Source: Candidatus Wallbacteria bacterium GWC2_49_35 (GTDB taxonomy: Bacteria > Muiribacteriota > UBA9980). From it: a DNA stretch of 36,402 nt. Made by a program: the position numbers and the translations under genes. The stretch covers positions 1 through 36,402 of the forward strand of contig MGFH01000251.1 of assembly GCA_001791795.1 (NCBI GenBank). The letters run 5' to 3'. Shown in pieces: positions 29,531 to 36,242 of this stretch (within the stretch, counting starts at the first letter, position 1; each line of letters starts with the position of its first letter). The notes under the pieces were generated by a model, which worked only from the letters and a program-made list of their open reading frames with translations, had not been told where the DNA came from and ran no database searches.

Positions 29531-31006
29531 TTAAATGACGCTTACCTGCACCTGCTCGACGTGATACGTTTCGTCGGCGCGGACGAAAATCGTTTTTCCG
29601 AGCCTGGTCTCGAGCAGCTTGATGCGCTCGCCTTCTTCGCCCAGCAGATGCGCCGCGACGTCGGGATGGGTGTTCACGAGTATATTATTGGCTTCGGACA
29701 TTTTCGATATTTTCGCAATTTCGCTTCTGACCTTGTTGGAGATCAGTTTCGACGCGTAAACCTTGCCGGTGCCCTTGCAGTACGGGCAATGCTGTAAAAG
29801 CACTTCATTGATCGATTTGGACACACGTTCGCGGGTAATTTCAACAAGCCCGAATTCGGTGATTCCGATTATGGAATTTTTCGACTTATCTTTTTTGAAG
29901 TTTTCGCGCATTACTTCCATTATCTTGTTTTTGTGATCTTCTTTGATCATGTCGATAAAATCGACTATAATGATGCCGCCGATGCCGCGAATTCTTATCT
30001 GGCGGGCTATTTCGTAAGCAGCCTCCATATTGGTCTTAAACACCGTTTCTTCGAGGTCGTCCTGGCCGGTGAATTTGCCGGTATTGACGTCAATGGCGGT
30101 CAGCGCCTCGGTCTTCTGGATGATTATGTACCCGCCGCAGTTGAGCCATACGTGGGTTTTAAGCGCGCGGTCTATCTGACGGTCGACGCCCATCTTTTCG
30201 AAAATGAAAACCTCGTCTTTATAAAGTTTCAGCTTTTCAACCTCGCGCGGCGCCATGAATTCGAAATATTCGCGCAGTTTAAGATACTGCTCTTCGGAAT
30301 CGACATAAATTTCACTGACGTCGTGGGTGAACAGGTCGCGCAGGATCTTCATGGCGATATTAAGTTCGTTGTGAATAAGGGCGTAAACTCCGGATTTATG
30401 AATTCGTCCGACTATTTTATCCCACAATTGGAGAAGGAATTTAATATCGGTTTCTATCTCTTCTTCGGTTATTTCGCTTGTGGAGTTGGAAGCCGCGGTG
30501 CGGATGATCAGTCCCATGTCTTCGGGGCAGTACTTGTCGCCGAAGGATTTCAGTCGCGACCGCTCGCTTTCGTCGGTAATGCGCCGGGAAACATATATGC
30601 TCTTTTCGTTGAGCAGAAGCACGCAGAAGCGCCCGGGCAGAGTGAGGAATGTGGTCCCGCGCGCGCCCTTGGTACCCAGCGGGTCTTTCATTATCTGAAC
30701 GACTATTTCCTGGCCGACCTGCAGAACGTCCCTTATTGAAATATCTTTCATGCTTATCGCGTCGTCTTTTTCGACGCCTTCTATGTGGTAATCGTCTATG
30801 TGCAGGAATACATCCTTTTCAAGACCGACATCGACGAAGGCCGACTGCATGCCCGGAAGAACGTTCGAAACTTTGCCTTTATAAATATTTCCGACTATGC
30901 GCAGCGACTCTTCTCGCTCCACGTAAAACTCGGCCAGGCGGTTGTCTTCGAGAATGACGATCTGAGTTTCGTCTTCATCTACGTGAATAATAATTTTTTT
31001 CTCCAA
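29531..31006 (-). CDS. rng: Ribonuclease G (RNase E/G family)
   Basis: This 491-residue endoribonuclease cleaves 5'-monophosphorylated RNA in AU-rich regions and acts in rRNA maturation and mRNA decay. Length fits RNase G (about 489 in E. coli). An S1 RNA-binding region lies at about 35-125 (GNIYKGKVSNVLPGMQSAFVDVG). Catalytic Asp306 (AIDVNTGK) and Asp349 (IIIVDFIDM) are present, and the Zn-link is CPYCKGTG at 407-414. The C-terminal degradosome scaffold of RNase E is absent. The start is TTG 31006 with SD AAGGGG 8 bases upstream, and its own promoter lies at 31051-31079. RNase G commonly neighbours the radical SAM/DUF2344 pair, which is found here upstream of the sigma-54 activator. Confidence 0.94.
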   Translation of the reverse strand: MEKKIIIHVDEDETQIVILEDNRLAEFYVEREESLRIVGNIYKGKVSNVLPGMQSAFVDVGLEKDVFLHIDDYHIEGVEKDDAISMKDISIRDVLQVGQEIVVQIMKDPLGTKGARGTTFLTLPGRFCVLLLNEKSIYVSRRITDESERSRLKSFGDKYCPEDMGLIIRTAASNSTSEITEEEIETDIKFLLQLWDKIVGRIHKSGVYALIHNELNIAMKILRDLFTHDVSEIYVDSEEQYLKLREYFEFMAPREVEKLKLYKDEVFIFEKMGVDRQIDRALKTHVWLNCGGYIIIQKTEALTAIDVNTGKFTGQDDLEETVFKTNMEAAYEIARQIRIRGIGGIIIVDFIDMIKEDHKNKIMEVMRENFKKDKSKNSIIGITEFGLVEITRERVSKSINEVLLQHCPYCKGTGKVYASKLISNKVRSEIAKISKMSEANNILVNTHPDVAAHLLGEEGERIKLLETRLGKTIFVRADETYHVEQVQVSVI

Positions 31007-31050
31007 AATAGAGGCCCCTTTCTATAAGTTTTTAAATTAAAAATCAGGAT

Positions 31051-31079
31051 ATTATATTAAATAATTAGAAAAGTTTCAA
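31051..31079 (-). promoter_or_regulatory. Sigma-70-type promoter of rng
   Basis: TTGAAA (31079-31074), a 17-base spacer and a perfect TATAAT (31056-31051) on the minus strand. The start should be near 31044, 38 bases before the TTG start. It lies just after the terminator at 31125-31197, so rng is transcribed independently of what is upstream. Confidence 0.7.
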
Positions 31080-31124
31080 GAGATATATTTAGAAAAGAAA
31101 ATAAAAATATAGATGAAAAACGAG

Positions 31125-31197
31125 AAAAAAAAAGCCGCCGTGAACTTTCTCTATCGGAAGTGCTGAAAGTGCTTAATATTTCAGCTGTTCACGGCGG
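31125..31197 (-). terminator. Intrinsic terminator of the candidate small RNA
   Basis: On the minus strand CCGCCGTGAAC (31197-31187) pairs perfectly with GTTCACGGCGG (31145-31135). One base after the stem follows a run of nine T (31133-31125). The 41-base loop contains a 7-base-pair inner hairpin. Confidence 0.8.
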
Positions 31198-31222
31198 ATT
31201 AATTGGGTTCGTTAAGTGCCAC
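31125..31222 (-). ncRNA. Candidate sigma-54-dependent small RNA, about 98 nt
   Basis: It is bounded by a near-consensus -24/-12 promoter (31249-31233, start expected near 31222) and a strong intrinsic terminator ending in nine U (31133-31125). It has no open frame of note. The predicted RNA carries three GCACUU motifs (31219-31214, 31172-31167 and 31163-31158); the first is at the 5' end. An internal hairpin GCTGAAA/TTTCAGC (31185-31179 with 31168-31162) lies inside the terminator's outer stem. It sits directly downstream of a sigma-54 activator gene on the same strand, like crcZ after cbrB or qrr1 beside luxO. No sequence similarity to those RNAs is claimed. Confidence 0.6.
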
Positions 31223-31232
31223 ATTCTTTCTA

Positions 31233-31249
31233 AGCAACATTCATGCCAA
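31233..31249 (-). promoter_or_regulatory. Sigma-54 (-24/-12) promoter
   Basis: The minus-strand sequence TTGGCATGAATGTTGCT holds GG (31247-31246) and GC (31235-31234) with the required 10 bases between. It matches the TGGCAC-N5-TTGC consensus at all but one of the main positions (T for C after TGGCA). No sigma-70 hexamers overlap it. Confidence 0.7.
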
Positions 31250-31281
31250 GTTATCGCCAACCGCAAAGCACAGTAAAACTT

Positions 31282-31294
31282 ATGAACCGTTCAT
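31282..31294. promoter_or_regulatory. Perfect 13-base dyad ATGAAC-C-GTTCAT
   Basis: A complete palindrome around a central base, centred about 66 bases upstream of the predicted small-RNA start and between the sigma-54 promoter and the enhancer cluster. It could be an operator for a second regulator; that is inference. Confidence 0.35.
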
Positions 31295-31317
31295 TTTCCA
31301 CTTTATTTTTCAAACTT

Positions 31318-31357
31318 TGTAACCGTTACGCGTTACAAAATGTAACGATAGTGTAAC
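31318..31357. promoter_or_regulatory. Enhancer-like cluster of GTAAC/GTTAC half-sites
   Basis: Five half-sites occur in 40 bases: GTAAC at 31319, 31342 and 31353, and GTTAC at 31325 and 31332. They form the dyads GTAAC-C-GTTAC (31319-31329) and GTTACA-AAA-TGTAAC (31332-31346). The cluster is about 96-135 bases upstream of the predicted small-RNA start, the usual range for sigma-54 activator binding. It begins 37 bases after the stop of the activator gene. Confidence 0.6.
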
Positions 31358-31393
31358 TGGTGTATAATGTTCATATTTTTTTAAACCGGGAGG

Positions 31394-33625
31394 TTACTCG
31401 TCTTTGAGCAACCCGTATTTTTTCATGCGGCGCCATAACGCCATTCTGCTGATCTTTAAAAAAGCTGCGGTTTTGTTGCGATTATTATTGAAAAGTTCCA
31501 GCGATTTTAAAAGTTCGAGATATTCGTCATCAAACGCGGCAGAGCGAATGAGCGCCCTGTCCGGGCCGCCGTCGGCGATCTTGTAAGCGGAAGATGCTGA
31601 AGCTCCGGTTGGTGTAACGCCCGCGGTTATAGTTGGAGTTGCATTTTTTTTGTAAATTTCCAGATAATCTTCGGCAAGCTGTTCGATATCGATTATAATG
31701 TCGTTTGAAAACACGAACGCATGCTCGAATATATTGTAAAGTTCCCTTATATTGCCCGGAAAATTATACGAAAGAAGAAATTTTATAAAGTTGTCGGATA
31801 GCCGGTTGATATTCTTGCCGTATTTCTGGTTTAACTTTTTAATGAAATGCCTCGCTAAAAGCAGGATATCCTCTCTGCGTTCCTTCAGCGAAGGCACTTT
31901 GATATTAACTATTTTAAGCCTGTAATAAAGGTCTTCCCTGAATTTTTTCTGCCCGATGAGCTCGATCAGGTTTTTATTCGTCGCCGCAATTATCCTCACA
32001 TCGACCTTCTGCGGTTCATTCGAACCCAGAGGTTCGAACATCTTTTCCTCTATGACATGAAGAGTTTTTACCTGAAGATGAAGCGGCAGTTCGCCGATCT
32101 CGTCGAGCAGTATCGTACCCCCGGAGGCCATGGCGAATTTTCCTGGCTTGTCCTTTTTAGCGTCGGTGAAAGCGCCCTTGACGTAGCCGAAAAGTTCCGA
32201 TTCGATGAGGGCGTCCGGCAGCGCGCCGCAGTTAACGACGACGAACGGAGCGTTCCTGCGCTCCGAATTTTGATGAATGGTGCGCGCTATAAGGCTTTTT
32301 CCGGCGCCGGATGGCCCTTCGATGAGCACGTTGCAGCTGCTTTCGGATATCGAAGGAATGATCGCGAAAAGGTCGTTAATAAATTTGCTGTTACCGACGA
32401 GCGAGCTGCGCGCCTCGACGGAACTTGGAAAATTTTCTTTGGCCTCGGAATCATCTGAAAGTTCCACGGCGGATGCGTTATTGTTGAAAAACGCGAAAAT
32501 GCCCTTGACCCCCCCGAAATTATCGGTGAATTCACCGAGCGAGGCTTTTACGTAGATCTGTCTGCCGTTCTTGTGGTTTAACAGCAATGAGAACTGGCTT
32601 TTAACGCCTGCTCTCAAATTTTCGATGTTTTTATGAAAAAAAATGAGCTGGTCTTCATAAATATAGTCGACGATCGAATTAGCTTGAAGTTCTTCCGACG
32701 AATAGCCTATTATTTCGTTCATCTTCTTATTCACGAATACGGTCCTGAGATTGTTGTCGACCAGCCAGAAACCTTCGCTAAGGTTCTCGACTATTTCGCG
32801 GTATTTCTCCTCGCTTCTGACAAGCGCTTCCTCCGCCAGCTTCCGGTCGCTGACGTCGCGCCAGGCCGCGGCGAAACCGTCCTTGAGGTCAACGACCCTG
32901 AAGTCATAATAATGGAATGTTTCCGGCGAACGCCGTATAAGCATTTTAAAAGCATGTTTTATAAGAGGCATTTGGGCGTTCACCACGCGGCAGTATTCTT
33001 CGAAAAGTCCGTTTTCCCGGTATGAAGGCAGCGGTTCGCTGAGACTCCTTCCGATCATCTCCTCGCGGGAAATGCGGAAGTCCCTGCAGGCCGAATCATT
33101 CAAATATTGTATAATAAAATCCTTTATAACGCCGCCGGAATCCCTGACGGCGCTGAAGATGCCGAAACAGTCGAGCATGGTTTCGACCGAGGTCTTAAAG
33201 ATCTGTGTGCTTTCCTTGAGCCTGAGCTCGAGTCTTTTTCTGTTATAGGCCATCTCTACGGAAACGCAAAGCGACTCTTTGGTGAAAGGCTTGATTATAT
33301 ATCCGTAGGGCTCCGTCAACTTCGCGCGGCTGAAAACCTGCTGATGCGTATGCGATGTAAGAAAAATAACGACGGCCTCTATTTCGGGGTCGTTTTTTAT
33401 GAGCTCGGCGACCTCGACGCCCGCTTCGGCCTCATCGAGCGAAATATCCATAAGAACGATATCGGGCCTGAAAAGGTATATTTTTTCGAGAGCCTCGCGC
33501 TTGTTGGATGCGGAATCGATATCGCCGAAGCCGCCGGCCTTTAAAAAGGAAGCGATGGTTTTAGACTCGATTATGTTGTCTTCGACAATAAGGATTTTCA
33601 ATTCGAAATCATTTTCTTTTATCAT
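31394..33625 (-). CDS. Sigma-54-dependent activator, REC-PAS-PAS-AAA-Fis
   Basis: This 743-residue NtrC-type regulator has a receiver domain at 1-125 with Asp60 (IVLMDIS). Two PAS-like domains lie at about 145-270 and 275-390 (YREIVENLSEGFWLVDNNLRTVFVN). The sigma-54 AAA+ module at about 410-650 has Walker A GPSGAGKS (Lys443), LFGYVKGAFTDA (484-489 in place of GAFTGA), Walker B GGTILLDEIGEL and FREDLYYRLKI. A Fis-type helix-turn-helix lies at about 705-740 (NRNKTAAFLKISRMALWRRMKKYG). It activates sigma-54 promoters from upstream sites when phosphorylated. No histidine kinase partner adjoins it. A likely target is the small-RNA gene immediately downstream. Confidence 0.92.
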   Translation of the reverse strand: MIKENDFELKILIVEDNIIESKTIASFLKAGGFGDIDSASNKREALEKIYLFRPDIVLMDISLDEAEAGVEVAELIKNDPEIEAVVIFLTSHTHQQVFSRAKLTEPYGYIIKPFTKESLCVSVEMAYNRKRLELRLKESTQIFKTSVETMLDCFGIFSAVRDSGGVIKDFIIQYLNDSACRDFRISREEMIGRSLSEPLPSYRENGLFEEYCRVVNAQMPLIKHAFKMLIRRSPETFHYYDFRVVDLKDGFAAAWRDVSDRKLAEEALVRSEEKYREIVENLSEGFWLVDNNLRTVFVNKKMNEIIGYSSEELQANSIVDYIYEDQLIFFHKNIENLRAGVKSQFSLLLNHKNGRQIYVKASLGEFTDNFGGVKGIFAFFNNNASAVELSDDSEAKENFPSSVEARSSLVGNSKFINDLFAIIPSISESSCNVLIEGPSGAGKSLIARTIHQNSERRNAPFVVVNCGALPDALIESELFGYVKGAFTDAKKDKPGKFAMASGGTILLDEIGELPLHLQVKTLHVIEEKMFEPLGSNEPQKVDVRIIAATNKNLIELIGQKKFREDLYYRLKIVNIKVPSLKERREDILLLARHFIKKLNQKYGKNINRLSDNFIKFLLSYNFPGNIRELYNIFEHAFVFSNDIIIDIEQLAEDYLEIYKKNATPTITAGVTPTGASASSAYKIADGGPDRALIRSAAFDDEYLELLKSLELFNNNRNKTAAFLKISRMALWRRMKKYGLLKDE

Positions 33626-33687: not shown

Positions 33688-34365
33688 TCAATTTTTATAT
33701 ATCAGTTTTTCCTTGCTTACGCCGGCGGAATAAATCATTTTTTCCTTATGTTCGCCCATTAAATAGCTTATCACCAGATGCGCTTTGATCGAGCTTCCGG
33801 CGATAAGCGCGGTATTGAGGCGGAAGCCTATTTTTTCGGGGCCTTCGGAAATCAGAGCGCACGATTCGATGTAGGGCTTTATGTCCCGGGACTTGCCGTT
33901 GTAGTCGACCGTCACGCTTTCGGCCGCCCCTATAGAGGCGATTCTGGATTTAAGCGAGTCCGCCGCCCCCGGAAATTTGTCGAATTCCGCCTCGATCTCG
34001 CAAGAATATTCGAAAGCCCTGATATTGGATATCGTCGTGTTGATGTCGCCGCCGGGATATTCGAGACGAAAGAATTTGATCCCCGGGGGAAACGATCTGT
34101 CGAGAGCCGAAAGCATAGCTCCGTCGGCCGCGATTTTGTTTTTCAGATAGATGTTGACAAATTCGCACTTCGACGAAACCCCGAGCGGCAGGGCCGGCGA
34201 AAAGGATAGTTTCGGTTTTCTGGTGAAGCCTTCGGTATAAAACACCGGAAGCGCCGCCCTCACGATGGAAATATAAAAAATATTTATCACGTCGCGGTGT
34301 GCCGTGTATTTGATCGTTCCGCTTTTTTCATACCATGCCTGCAATATGTATTCGTTATTTTGCAT
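33688..34365 (-). CDS. DUF2344 (TIGR03936) radical-SAM-linked protein
   Basis: The start chosen is ATG 34365, with SD AAGGCGG 5 bases upstream. Longer frames reach 34392 or 34632 but lack an SD or read through the radical SAM gene. The product of about 225 residues opens with AWYEKSGTIKYTAHRDVINIFYISIVRAALPVFYTEGF and KLSFSPALPLGVSS, the recognised DUF2344 pattern (a W/F-x-K-x-G-x-x-x-Y-x-S-H-x-D start). In many bacteria this protein is encoded beside, or fused to, the radical SAM protein that lies just upstream here. Its function is unknown, though RNA modification has been suspected. It follows the radical SAM stop by 20 bases. Confidence 0.85.
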   Translation of the reverse strand: MQNNEYILQAWYEKSGTIKYTAHRDVINIFYISIVRAALPVFYTEGFTRKPKLSFSPALPLGVSSKCEFVNIYLKNKIAADGAMLSALDRSFPPGIKFFRLEYPGGDINTTISNIRAFEYSCEIEAEFDKFPGAADSLKSRIASIGAAESVTVDYNGKSRDIKPYIESCALISEGPEKIGFRLNTALIAGSSIKAHLVISYLMGEHKEKMIYSAGVSKEKLIYKN

Positions 34366-34385
34366 ATATTCCGCCTTCGATTTAT

Positions 34386-36242
34386 TTAACATACTCCGCA
34401 GCGCTTGCATCTGTTCGGTTCGCAAGCCGGCGTCTTTTTCTCTTCTCGCGCCTTCGCGAACTCTTCGGCCAGATAGAGGCGGTTCACGCCGGCATCGACA
34501 ATCTCCCACGGCAGGCACTCTTCGAGGCCGATCTCGCGGGCGGCATAGGCGCCGATATCCAATCCGGCGCTCCGGAACGCCTCCTGCCATGCCGGAAAAT
34601 CGAGTTTTCCGTCCCAGGCGTCGAAGCGACATCCCGCCTTCAAGGCCGCAAGCAAAACTTTACCCAGAAGCCTCGAGCCGCGGGCGAAGGCCGATTCGAG
34701 AAGCGTCGTGTCAAAGCGGGTGAATTTCATGCACACCTCGCGGTGTTTTTTCAGTTCGTTCCTGATAAGCGACTGCTTTCTGAAAACCTCGTCGCGCCCG
34801 GCCTGGACCGCCCACTGAAAGGGCGTGTGCGGCTTGGGAACAAACGTCGAAAAAGTGACGTTGACCGAAAACCCGCGCGCCTTTTTTTCGCGCGCTATGG
34901 CCGTCACGCGGCTTATGGACCTGGCAATCGCGAGCAGATCTTCGTCCGTCTCAAAAGGAAGCCCTATCATAAAGTAAAGCTTTATAAGCCTGTAGCCCGA
35001 ATCGATCGCGGCTGAGGCCGTCGAATAGAGGTCCTGCTCCGTCACGTTCTTGTTTATGACGTCGCGCATCCTCTGCGAGCCAGCCTCGGGAGCGAATGTG
35101 AGCCCGGACTTGCGGTTCTTCGAAAGTTTCGATGCGAGCTCCACCGAGAAGGTCGAGATCCTCTGTGAAGGAAGCGATACCGAAAAAAGCGCATCTTTGA
35201 AACCTTCTTCGGTGTCGCTCAGCCCGAGAGTATAATCTATTAATTCGCCGAGCCCCGGATGGTCCGTCGCTGAAAGCGAGGACAGCGTGAACTCGGTGTA
35301 GCCAGTATTTAAAAATATGCTCCTGATAAGTCCCTTTATGTTTTCGACGCTCCGCTCGCGGTAGGGCCTGTAAATGAATCCGGCCTGACAGAAGCGGCAG
35401 GCGTTTTTGCAGCCGCGGGCAATTTCGACGACCCCGCGGTTGAATACAGTCTCGAAATTCGGGACCATCTGCCTCACCGGATGCCGGGCCTCGTCAAGGT
35501 TTGCAATCAGCCTGATCTTCACCCGGTCGGGGACGTCCTCTTTAAGTTTTTTAAAGCCGGTCTGAACGCCGGAAGCGTCGAATTCTGCCTGGTAATAAGA
35601 AGGCACGTACGAGCCTCTTATCCTCGAAAGGGCTTCTATCCTCGCAGCGCGATCGTCGCCTCTTTTTTTCGACTCGATGAGGACCTCGCATATCTCGCGC
35701 AGCGTGTCCTCGCCGTCGCCGACGAAGAAAACGTCTATAAAATCGGCCATGGGCTCGGGGTTCACGCATGCCGACCCCCCCGCTATTATTACGGGGTCGC
35801 ATTCCGCACGCTTCGACGATTCGAGAGGGATTCCGGCCAGATCGAGAAAATGAAGCACGTTGGAATAATTAAGTTCGTATTCGAGCGTAAAGCCTATGAC
35901 GTCGAATTTTTTTGCCGCTATCATATAATTAAGCGAGCTCAGCGGATAGCCGATCTTTTTCATCAGCGCGGCGCAGTCGTCCTCGGGGATGAAAGCCCTG
36001 TCGCACAGAACGCCTTCGATCGATTCGGCGATCTCGAAGAGGATTTTGACGGCGAAATTCGACATGCCTATTTCGTATGTGTCCGGAAAAGAAAGCATGA
36101 ATTTAAGCCGCCCGTCGATCGCGTCGGCGCTCAGTTCCTCTTTTTTCAGGCCGTATTCGCAACCTATGTACTGCTGCGGTTTCGACACGTTCTGCAGAAT
36201 GTATTCGAACGTATTAATTATTATCCCTCCAGTATTCTTCAA
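34386..36242 (-). CDS. B12-binding-type radical SAM protein (TIGR03960 family)
   Basis: This protein of up to 618 residues has an N-terminal cobalamin-binding-like domain (FPDTYEIGMSNFAVKILFEI, GGSACVNPEPM, FFVGDGE). It is followed by the radical SAM core with CKNACRFC (C-x3-C-x2-C) for the [4Fe-4S] cluster, then a C-terminal tail CEPNRCKRCGVC that may bind a second cluster. It matches the family usually paired with DUF2344. The reaction is unknown. The coordinates use TTG 36242, the first conventional start, but no SD precedes it. A strong SD GGAGGG (36230-36225) lies 6 bases before ATT 36218, which fits the family's N-terminus better; see findings. Confidence 0.9.
   Translation of the reverse strand: MKNTGGIIINTFEYILQNVSKPQQYIGCEYGLKKEELSADAIDGRLKFMLSFPDTYEIGMSNFAVKILFEIAESIEGVLCDRAFIPEDDCAALMKKIGYPLSSLNYMIAAKKFDVIGFTLEYELNYSNVLHFLDLAGIPLESSKRAECDPVIIAGGSACVNPEPMADFIDVFFVGDGEDTLREICEVLIESKKRGDDRAARIEALSRIRGSYVPSYYQAEFDASGVQTGFKKLKEDVPDRVKIRLIANLDEARHPVRQMVPNFETVFNRGVVEIARGCKNACRFCQAGFIYRPYRERSVENIKGLIRSIFLNTGYTEFTLSSLSATDHPGLGELIDYTLGLSDTEEGFKDALFSVSLPSQRISTFSVELASKLSKNRKSGLTFAPEAGSQRMRDVINKNVTEQDLYSTASAAIDSGYRLIKLYFMIGLPFETDEDLLAIARSISRVTAIAREKKARGFSVNVTFSTFVPKPHTPFQWAVQAGRDEVFRKQSLIRNELKKHREVCMKFTRFDTTLLESAFARGSRLLGKVLLAALKAGCRFDAWDGKLDFPAWQEAFRSAGLDIGAYAAREIGLEECLPWEIVDAGVNRLYLAEEFAKAREEKKTPACEPNRCKRCGVC

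Follow-up and report, generated by a model that had tools for sequence, protein, structure and literature searches.

One question raised by the stretch of DNA considered here (the window, the 36,402-nucleotide contig 251 of a 3.67-Mb draft genome that is 77% complete) is what occupies the 387 bases, 31007-31393, between the gene for a sigma-54 activator and rng. The order of genes on the minus strand is a TIGR03960 radical SAM gene, a TIGR03936/DUF2344 gene, the sigma-54 activator, the gap and rng. The nearest named relatives of the source genome are the metagenome-assembled genomes JPNA_metabat.86, ADurb.Bin243 (unclassified in NCBI) and UBP16_UBA6123. A first-pass annotation had read the gap as a small RNA gene lying beside its own sigma-54 activator, and direct inspection of the sequence found the gap and all of the proposed elements at the positions given for them (Table 1). 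Along the minus strand these elements are ordered as half-sites, -24/-12 promoter, RNA unit, U tract and sigma-70 promoter of rng. Judged from sequence and its conservation, the locus probably encodes a stand-alone, trans-acting regulatory sRNA of a new family, transcribed by sigma-54 under the neighboring NtrC-type response regulator, a reading to which we assign a probability of roughly 85%.

Table 1. Positions in the window of the features in the gap and of the two genes that flank it
Feature	Positions	Strand	Remarks
Sigma-54 activator	31394..33625	-	Pfam: receiver, PAS domains, AAA+ sigma-54 interaction domain, AAA lid, Fis-type HTH
Enhancer-like cluster, five GTTAC/GTAAC half-sites	31319..31357	.	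Centers about -99 to -133 from predicted start
-24 element TTGGCATG	31242..31249	-	Sequence match, kept in genus, genome-wide pattern count
-12 element TTGCTT	31232..31237	-	GG-N10-GC spacing to -24
Predicted small RNA, 98 nt	31125..31222	-	Conservation, homologs in 3 same-genus genomes, no Rfam family
Unpaired 5' tail GUGGCACUUAACGAACCCAAUUAAU	31198..31222	-	First 22 nt invariant; candidate pairing region
Closing/terminator stem, 5' arm CCGCCGTGAAC	31187..31197	-	Two pairs changed on both sides, 100% of cells paired
Inner 7-bp hairpin GCUGAAA-UAUUAAGCAC-UUUCAGC	31162..31185	-	Loop invariant
Closing/terminator stem, 3' arm GTTCACGGCGG	31135..31145	-	Pairs with 5' arm
U9 tract at RNA end	31125..31133	-	T tract at same place in all four genomes
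Separate sigma-70-type promoter of rng, TTGAAA-17-TATAAT	31051..31079	-	11/12 matches; hexamers and spacing identical across the four genomes
rng, RNase G	29531..31006	-	TIGR00757 E 2e-140; TTG start

The putative promoter reads TTGGCATG-AATG-TTGCTT, a near-perfect -24/-12 match (TTGGCATG-N4-TTGCTT), with GG at 31247/31246 and GC at 31235/31234 exactly 10 bases apart and an expected +1 at 31222. A bare GG-N10-GC means little and is worthless as a criterion by itself, because simulated gaps contain 0.83 of them by chance. The strict pattern TTGGCAYGNNNNTTGCWT occurred in none of 20,000 simulated gaps, and in the whole source genome it occurs three times, against zero for a reversed control. The promoter coordinates of the first-pass annotation are thus right, and the pattern found there is beyond chance and conserved in the genus. 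The core TGGCACG-N4-TTGC with its GG-N10-GC spacing is accompanied by an enhancer-like cluster upstream, the combination of sequences expected of a sigma-54 promoter. The other two strict matches in the source genome stand before hsp20 and before small protein genes, so sigma-54 is evidently in use, and rpoN is present in the genome. Strict -24/-12 promoters lie ahead of hsp20 in three genomes of the genus (G000:C5:11677, G002:C2:98902 and G001:C515:6710), where hsp20 is oriented divergently to a gene for a protein with a conserved N-terminus. Tandem genes for very small cysteine-rich (CxxC) proteins of ~40-50 aa were also seen behind strict sigma-54 promoters, at G000:C117:16811 and G001:C312:7124.

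Counted from the expected start to the end of the U tract, the predicted RNA measures 98 nt, as first proposed, and the longest reading frame within it has 7 codons; the gap is non-coding. The computed fold (z=-2.7) consists of a 25-nt free 5' tail and one closed domain. The closing stem has 11 perfect pairs and encloses a 41-nt apical region that contains a second, 7-bp hairpin. The terminator of the first-pass annotation therefore holds in its 11 pairs and nine U, and fails only as a simple terminator hairpin, since the stem contains the inner hairpin. The same architecture explains why a generic terminator scan (loops of 3-8) lists no terminator in the gap. The hexamer GCACUU is present in three copies in the window RNA. 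Pairing is possible between part of the 5' tail, GUG(GCA)CUUAA, and the inner loop UUAAGCAC, both sides being invariant, and this may represent a pseudoknot or a dimer contact.

Searching with the DNA of the gap recovered each of the other three genomes sequenced in the genus, at E values of about 1e-30 to 1e-33, and gave only short, weak matches outside it. The complete set of elements is found in the same order in each of the three, making four of four with the source genome. Mean pairwise identity among the four is 38% in the upstream gap DNA, 86% in the promoter and 85% over the whole RNA; within the RNA it falls from 97% over the initial 25 nt to 91% in the region of the inner hairpin and 46% in the linker that precedes the 3' arm. 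Conservation thus rises again to a peak at the predicted +1, which lends independent support to that start. Two pairs of the stem carry compensatory changes (U-A to C-G, and C-G to U-A), and sliding the stem partners by one to three columns lowers pairing from 99% to 33-44%. Covariation in the stem is nevertheless modest and by itself does not clearly stand above column shuffles (58/500), because there are only four sequences and two of them are close.

Beyond the genus, the RNA seems to have no relatives among the genomes surveyed. A covariance model built from these four sequences recovered the homologs in the three same-genus genomes at E 2.5e-24 to 7.9e-23, and over 40 genomes of the phylum its only convincing matches were in the four genus members, with none in the 36 others. 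Matches elsewhere in the phylum had E values of 0.02-0.2, spanned ~50 bases and look like bare stems, and with filters off, the model found nothing below E 0.8 in 20 rng neighborhoods of other genera. In an 84,980-species collection (from which records of the source genome were possibly left out), exactly three records contain the 22-nt 5' tail, all of them from this genus. A covariance search against Rfam gave no match at the gathering threshold, Qrr and CrcZ included, and a permissive search (E<=10) gave one chance match, at E 9.2. The RNA is single copy. Orthologs of the activator are found in the same four genomes as the RNA and are absent elsewhere among the 40. Outside the genus, no credible sigma-54 promoters were seen upstream of rng, and in the readable rng neighborhoods of other genera the upstream gene mostly reaches rng or stops no more than a few tens of bases away from it. 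With rng directly against its upstream gene in most other genera, the activator and RNA look like a genus-specific cassette.

The Pfam matches of the activator (PF00158, E 5e-65; AAA_lid_14; HTH_8, E 7.7e-07) are those of an NtrC-type regulator (bEBP), and the orthologs of the protein in the genus are 72-73% identical. The phospho-acceptor D60, Walker A (437-444), the Walker B region (504-509) and the HTH are conserved in four orthologs, as is the loop GAFTDA (484-489), a variant of GAFTGA that has been reported to be able to activate (PMC4641369). Among the NCBIfam matches listed, the protein falls below the cutoff of every model for a named regulator.

Five GTTAC/GTAAC half-sites stand in the gap where 0.69 are expected (P=0.0005), arranged as GTTACA-n-TGTAAC-n-GTAACGGTTAC, which bears out the enhancer-like cluster of the first-pass annotation. 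The cluster is kept in all four genomes. Besides its place in the window, it lies, partly degenerate, at -105 to -149 in G003, and at about -226 to -264 in G001 and G002, so that it is ~100 bp upstream in two genomes and ~230 bp upstream in two. Retention of the array while its distance from the promoter shifts by more than 100 bp is the behavior expected of an enhancer. Adjacency, co-conservation and the shared half-site array together suggest that the neighboring activator drives the RNA promoter. The exact dyad GTTACA-N2-6-TGTAAC occurs in only two places in the source genome. The second, at G000:C242:2069, is a 27-bp perfect palindrome, AACGCAGTTACAAAATGTAACTGCGTT, which lies with additional GTAAC sites ahead of a lipoprotein-like gene; its vicinity showed no sigma-54 promoter. 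Directly downstream of a paralogous sigma-54 activator (G001:C231, about 41174) stand an array of these half-sites and a -24/-12 promoter, TGGCATGATTTATGC, in this case upstream of a gene for a CheA-like kinase.

An activator gene followed by a sigma-54 promoter and a non-coding RNA is therefore conserved as a unit in all four genomes, and with rpoN present and both promoter and stem conserved, the regulator-sRNA module of the first-pass annotation has computational support. We infer transcription of the predicted RNA, binding by the activator, dependence on Hfq and regulation by base pairing. The phosphorylated activator would bind the GTTAC/GTAAC array ~100 bp upstream (~230 bp in two species) and open the -24/-12 promoter. 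An RNA of 98-101 nt would then be made, ending at the long stem and U tract, and would base-pair through its unpaired 5' end and its inner loop, both invariant, probably with the help of Hfq. Two features expected of an Hfq-dependent base-pairing sRNA are found here, namely hfq in the genome (PF17209, E 1.4e-27) and a 3' tail of U8-9.

The position of the RNA unit, on the same strand and about 120 nt upstream of rng with no coding gene between, invites a different reading, in which the unit is a sigma-54-driven leader, its stem acts as an attenuator and RNase G expression is tied to the activator by read-through. Yet rng has a conserved promoter of its own between the U tract and its start codon. 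This TTGAAA-17-TATAAT promoter, also anticipated by the first-pass annotation, was located across the four genomes by direct search (the alignment misplaced it owing to length changes) and is present in each, and the distance from its -10 to the rng start varies from 43 to 106 nt. Moreover, the invariant 5' tail is unpaired in the computed folds, none of which extends into rng, so there is no evident competing antiterminator, and Rfam finds no riboswitch. A leader of rng is accordingly highly improbable. Still less credence can be given to a very short peptide encoded by the sigma-54 transcript. Sigma-54 promoters elsewhere in the genus do precede very small proteins, and three genomes have an ATG at nt 24, but the window copy has no ATG at all and no frame above 7 codons, the frames differ among species, and the changes follow base pairing rather than codons.

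It is also conceivable, though unlikely, that the RNA has no antisense role and binds a protein, as CrcZ does for Hfq/Crc or the Rsm RNAs for CsrA. The recurrence of GCACUU would fit such a sponge, as would the outcome of seed and seed-plus-ATG searches, which found no conserved mRNA target. CrcZ, the best-known relative in layout, is described as acting on Hfq (PMC4063720). Against this, the GGA motifs of CsrA sponges are missing, the other three genomes have GCGCUU in place of one of the three GCACUU copies, and a linear tail with 22 invariant nt bears more resemblance to a pairing region. Pairing with mRNA through the invariant tail and loop thus appears to be the likeliest mode of action, and a reasonably probable one, with protein sequestration second.

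Attempts to predict partners of an mRNA-pairing RNA had limited yield. A search with the 5' tail (14-mer, G-U allowed, one mismatch) gave matches only inside or antisense to coding genes, and pairing with the starts of rng, the activator and other neighbors was no better than with shuffled sequences. The one attractive match of the seed-plus-ATG searches is in G001, where a leader at G001:C485:11041-11077 starts with 17 nt complementary to the RNA inner loop (one G-U in that species). Judged from translations, the gene behind it seems to encode an Rrf2/IscR-like regulator, with a panB-like gene downstream, and an 11-bp match to the RNA 5' tail stands before panB. This leader is a weak lead as a target, because the matches in the other three genomes include no exact 10-nt loop complement ahead of such a gene, and because a comparable co-location, on G001:C63, falls inside a gene.

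The layout of the locus is of a known kind; the RNA family and the lineage are new. The analogies drawn in the first-pass annotation, to cbrB-crcZ and luxO-qrr, are apt, and pxrR-pxr and the DVU0679-sRNA pair are even closer. In Vibrio, the NtrC-type regulator LuxO acts with sigma-54 on Qrr1-5, Hfq-type sRNAs of about 100 nt, whereas the RNA here is single copy and has no Rfam Qrr match, and the activator scores 266 bits against a LuxO model whose cutoff is 800. In Pseudomonas and Azotobacter, the CbrB activator gene likewise lies beside a sigma-54 sRNA gene, but CrcZ is longer than the RNA here and is an Hfq/Crc sponge, while the latter has no match in Rfam. The CbrB half-sites, TGTTAC/GTAACA (PMC6296734, PMC8871633), match the GTTAC/GTAAC half-sites of the gap and differ in spacing, N12-14 and N15-19 for CbrB against mostly 1-6 bases here. 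LuxO sites lie about 100 bp upstream (PMC11407668). In myxobacteria, the NtrC-like gene for PxrR (Nla19) is directly upstream of Pxr, with an intergenic enhancer and a sigma-54 promoter, and Pxr is a multi-stem RNA of about 108 nt in a gap of 413 bp, followed by an unrelated gene (PMC5684412, PMC5568312). The adjacent upstream activator, enhancer, sigma-54 promoter and similar-sized RNA before an unrelated gene are all shared with the present locus. The differences are that Rfam shows no sequence relation between the two RNAs, that Pxr forms three stem-loops and the RNA here one long stem with an inner hairpin, and that the Pxr locus includes the kinase gene pxrK, no counterpart of which was seen here. 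DVU0679 and DVU0653 of Desulfovibrio, a different phylum, are sigma-54 response regulators with a target sRNA directly downstream of their own gene (PMC3333781, PMC4641369); the likeness considered here is one of arrangement.

The locus would add another pair of NtrC-type activator and adjacent sigma-54 sRNA, apparently independent of the others, in a lineage represented here solely by metagenome-assembled genomes. Such a case suggests that pairings of this kind recur as a design and are not a peculiarity of a few groups of proteobacteria. On balance, we lean toward viewing the RNA as the first representative of a new sRNA family, from a candidate phylum that is uncultured, and as the principal output of an orphan response regulator. 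In a single genus it would have been acquired or have formed, as a cassette that includes its activator, between the TIGR03936 gene and rng; the half-site would be common with CbrB by convergence or descent. In practical terms, the locus supplies a concrete predicted RNA with defined ends that can be sought in metatranscriptomes of the lineage. A minor point concerns the genes upstream of the activator, whose frames are listed at 33688-34632 and 34386-36242 of the window: as listed, the DUF2344 frame runs into the radical SAM gene, and the conserved start of the DUF2344 protein (M..NEYILQAWYEK) lies further inside that frame, near 34360.
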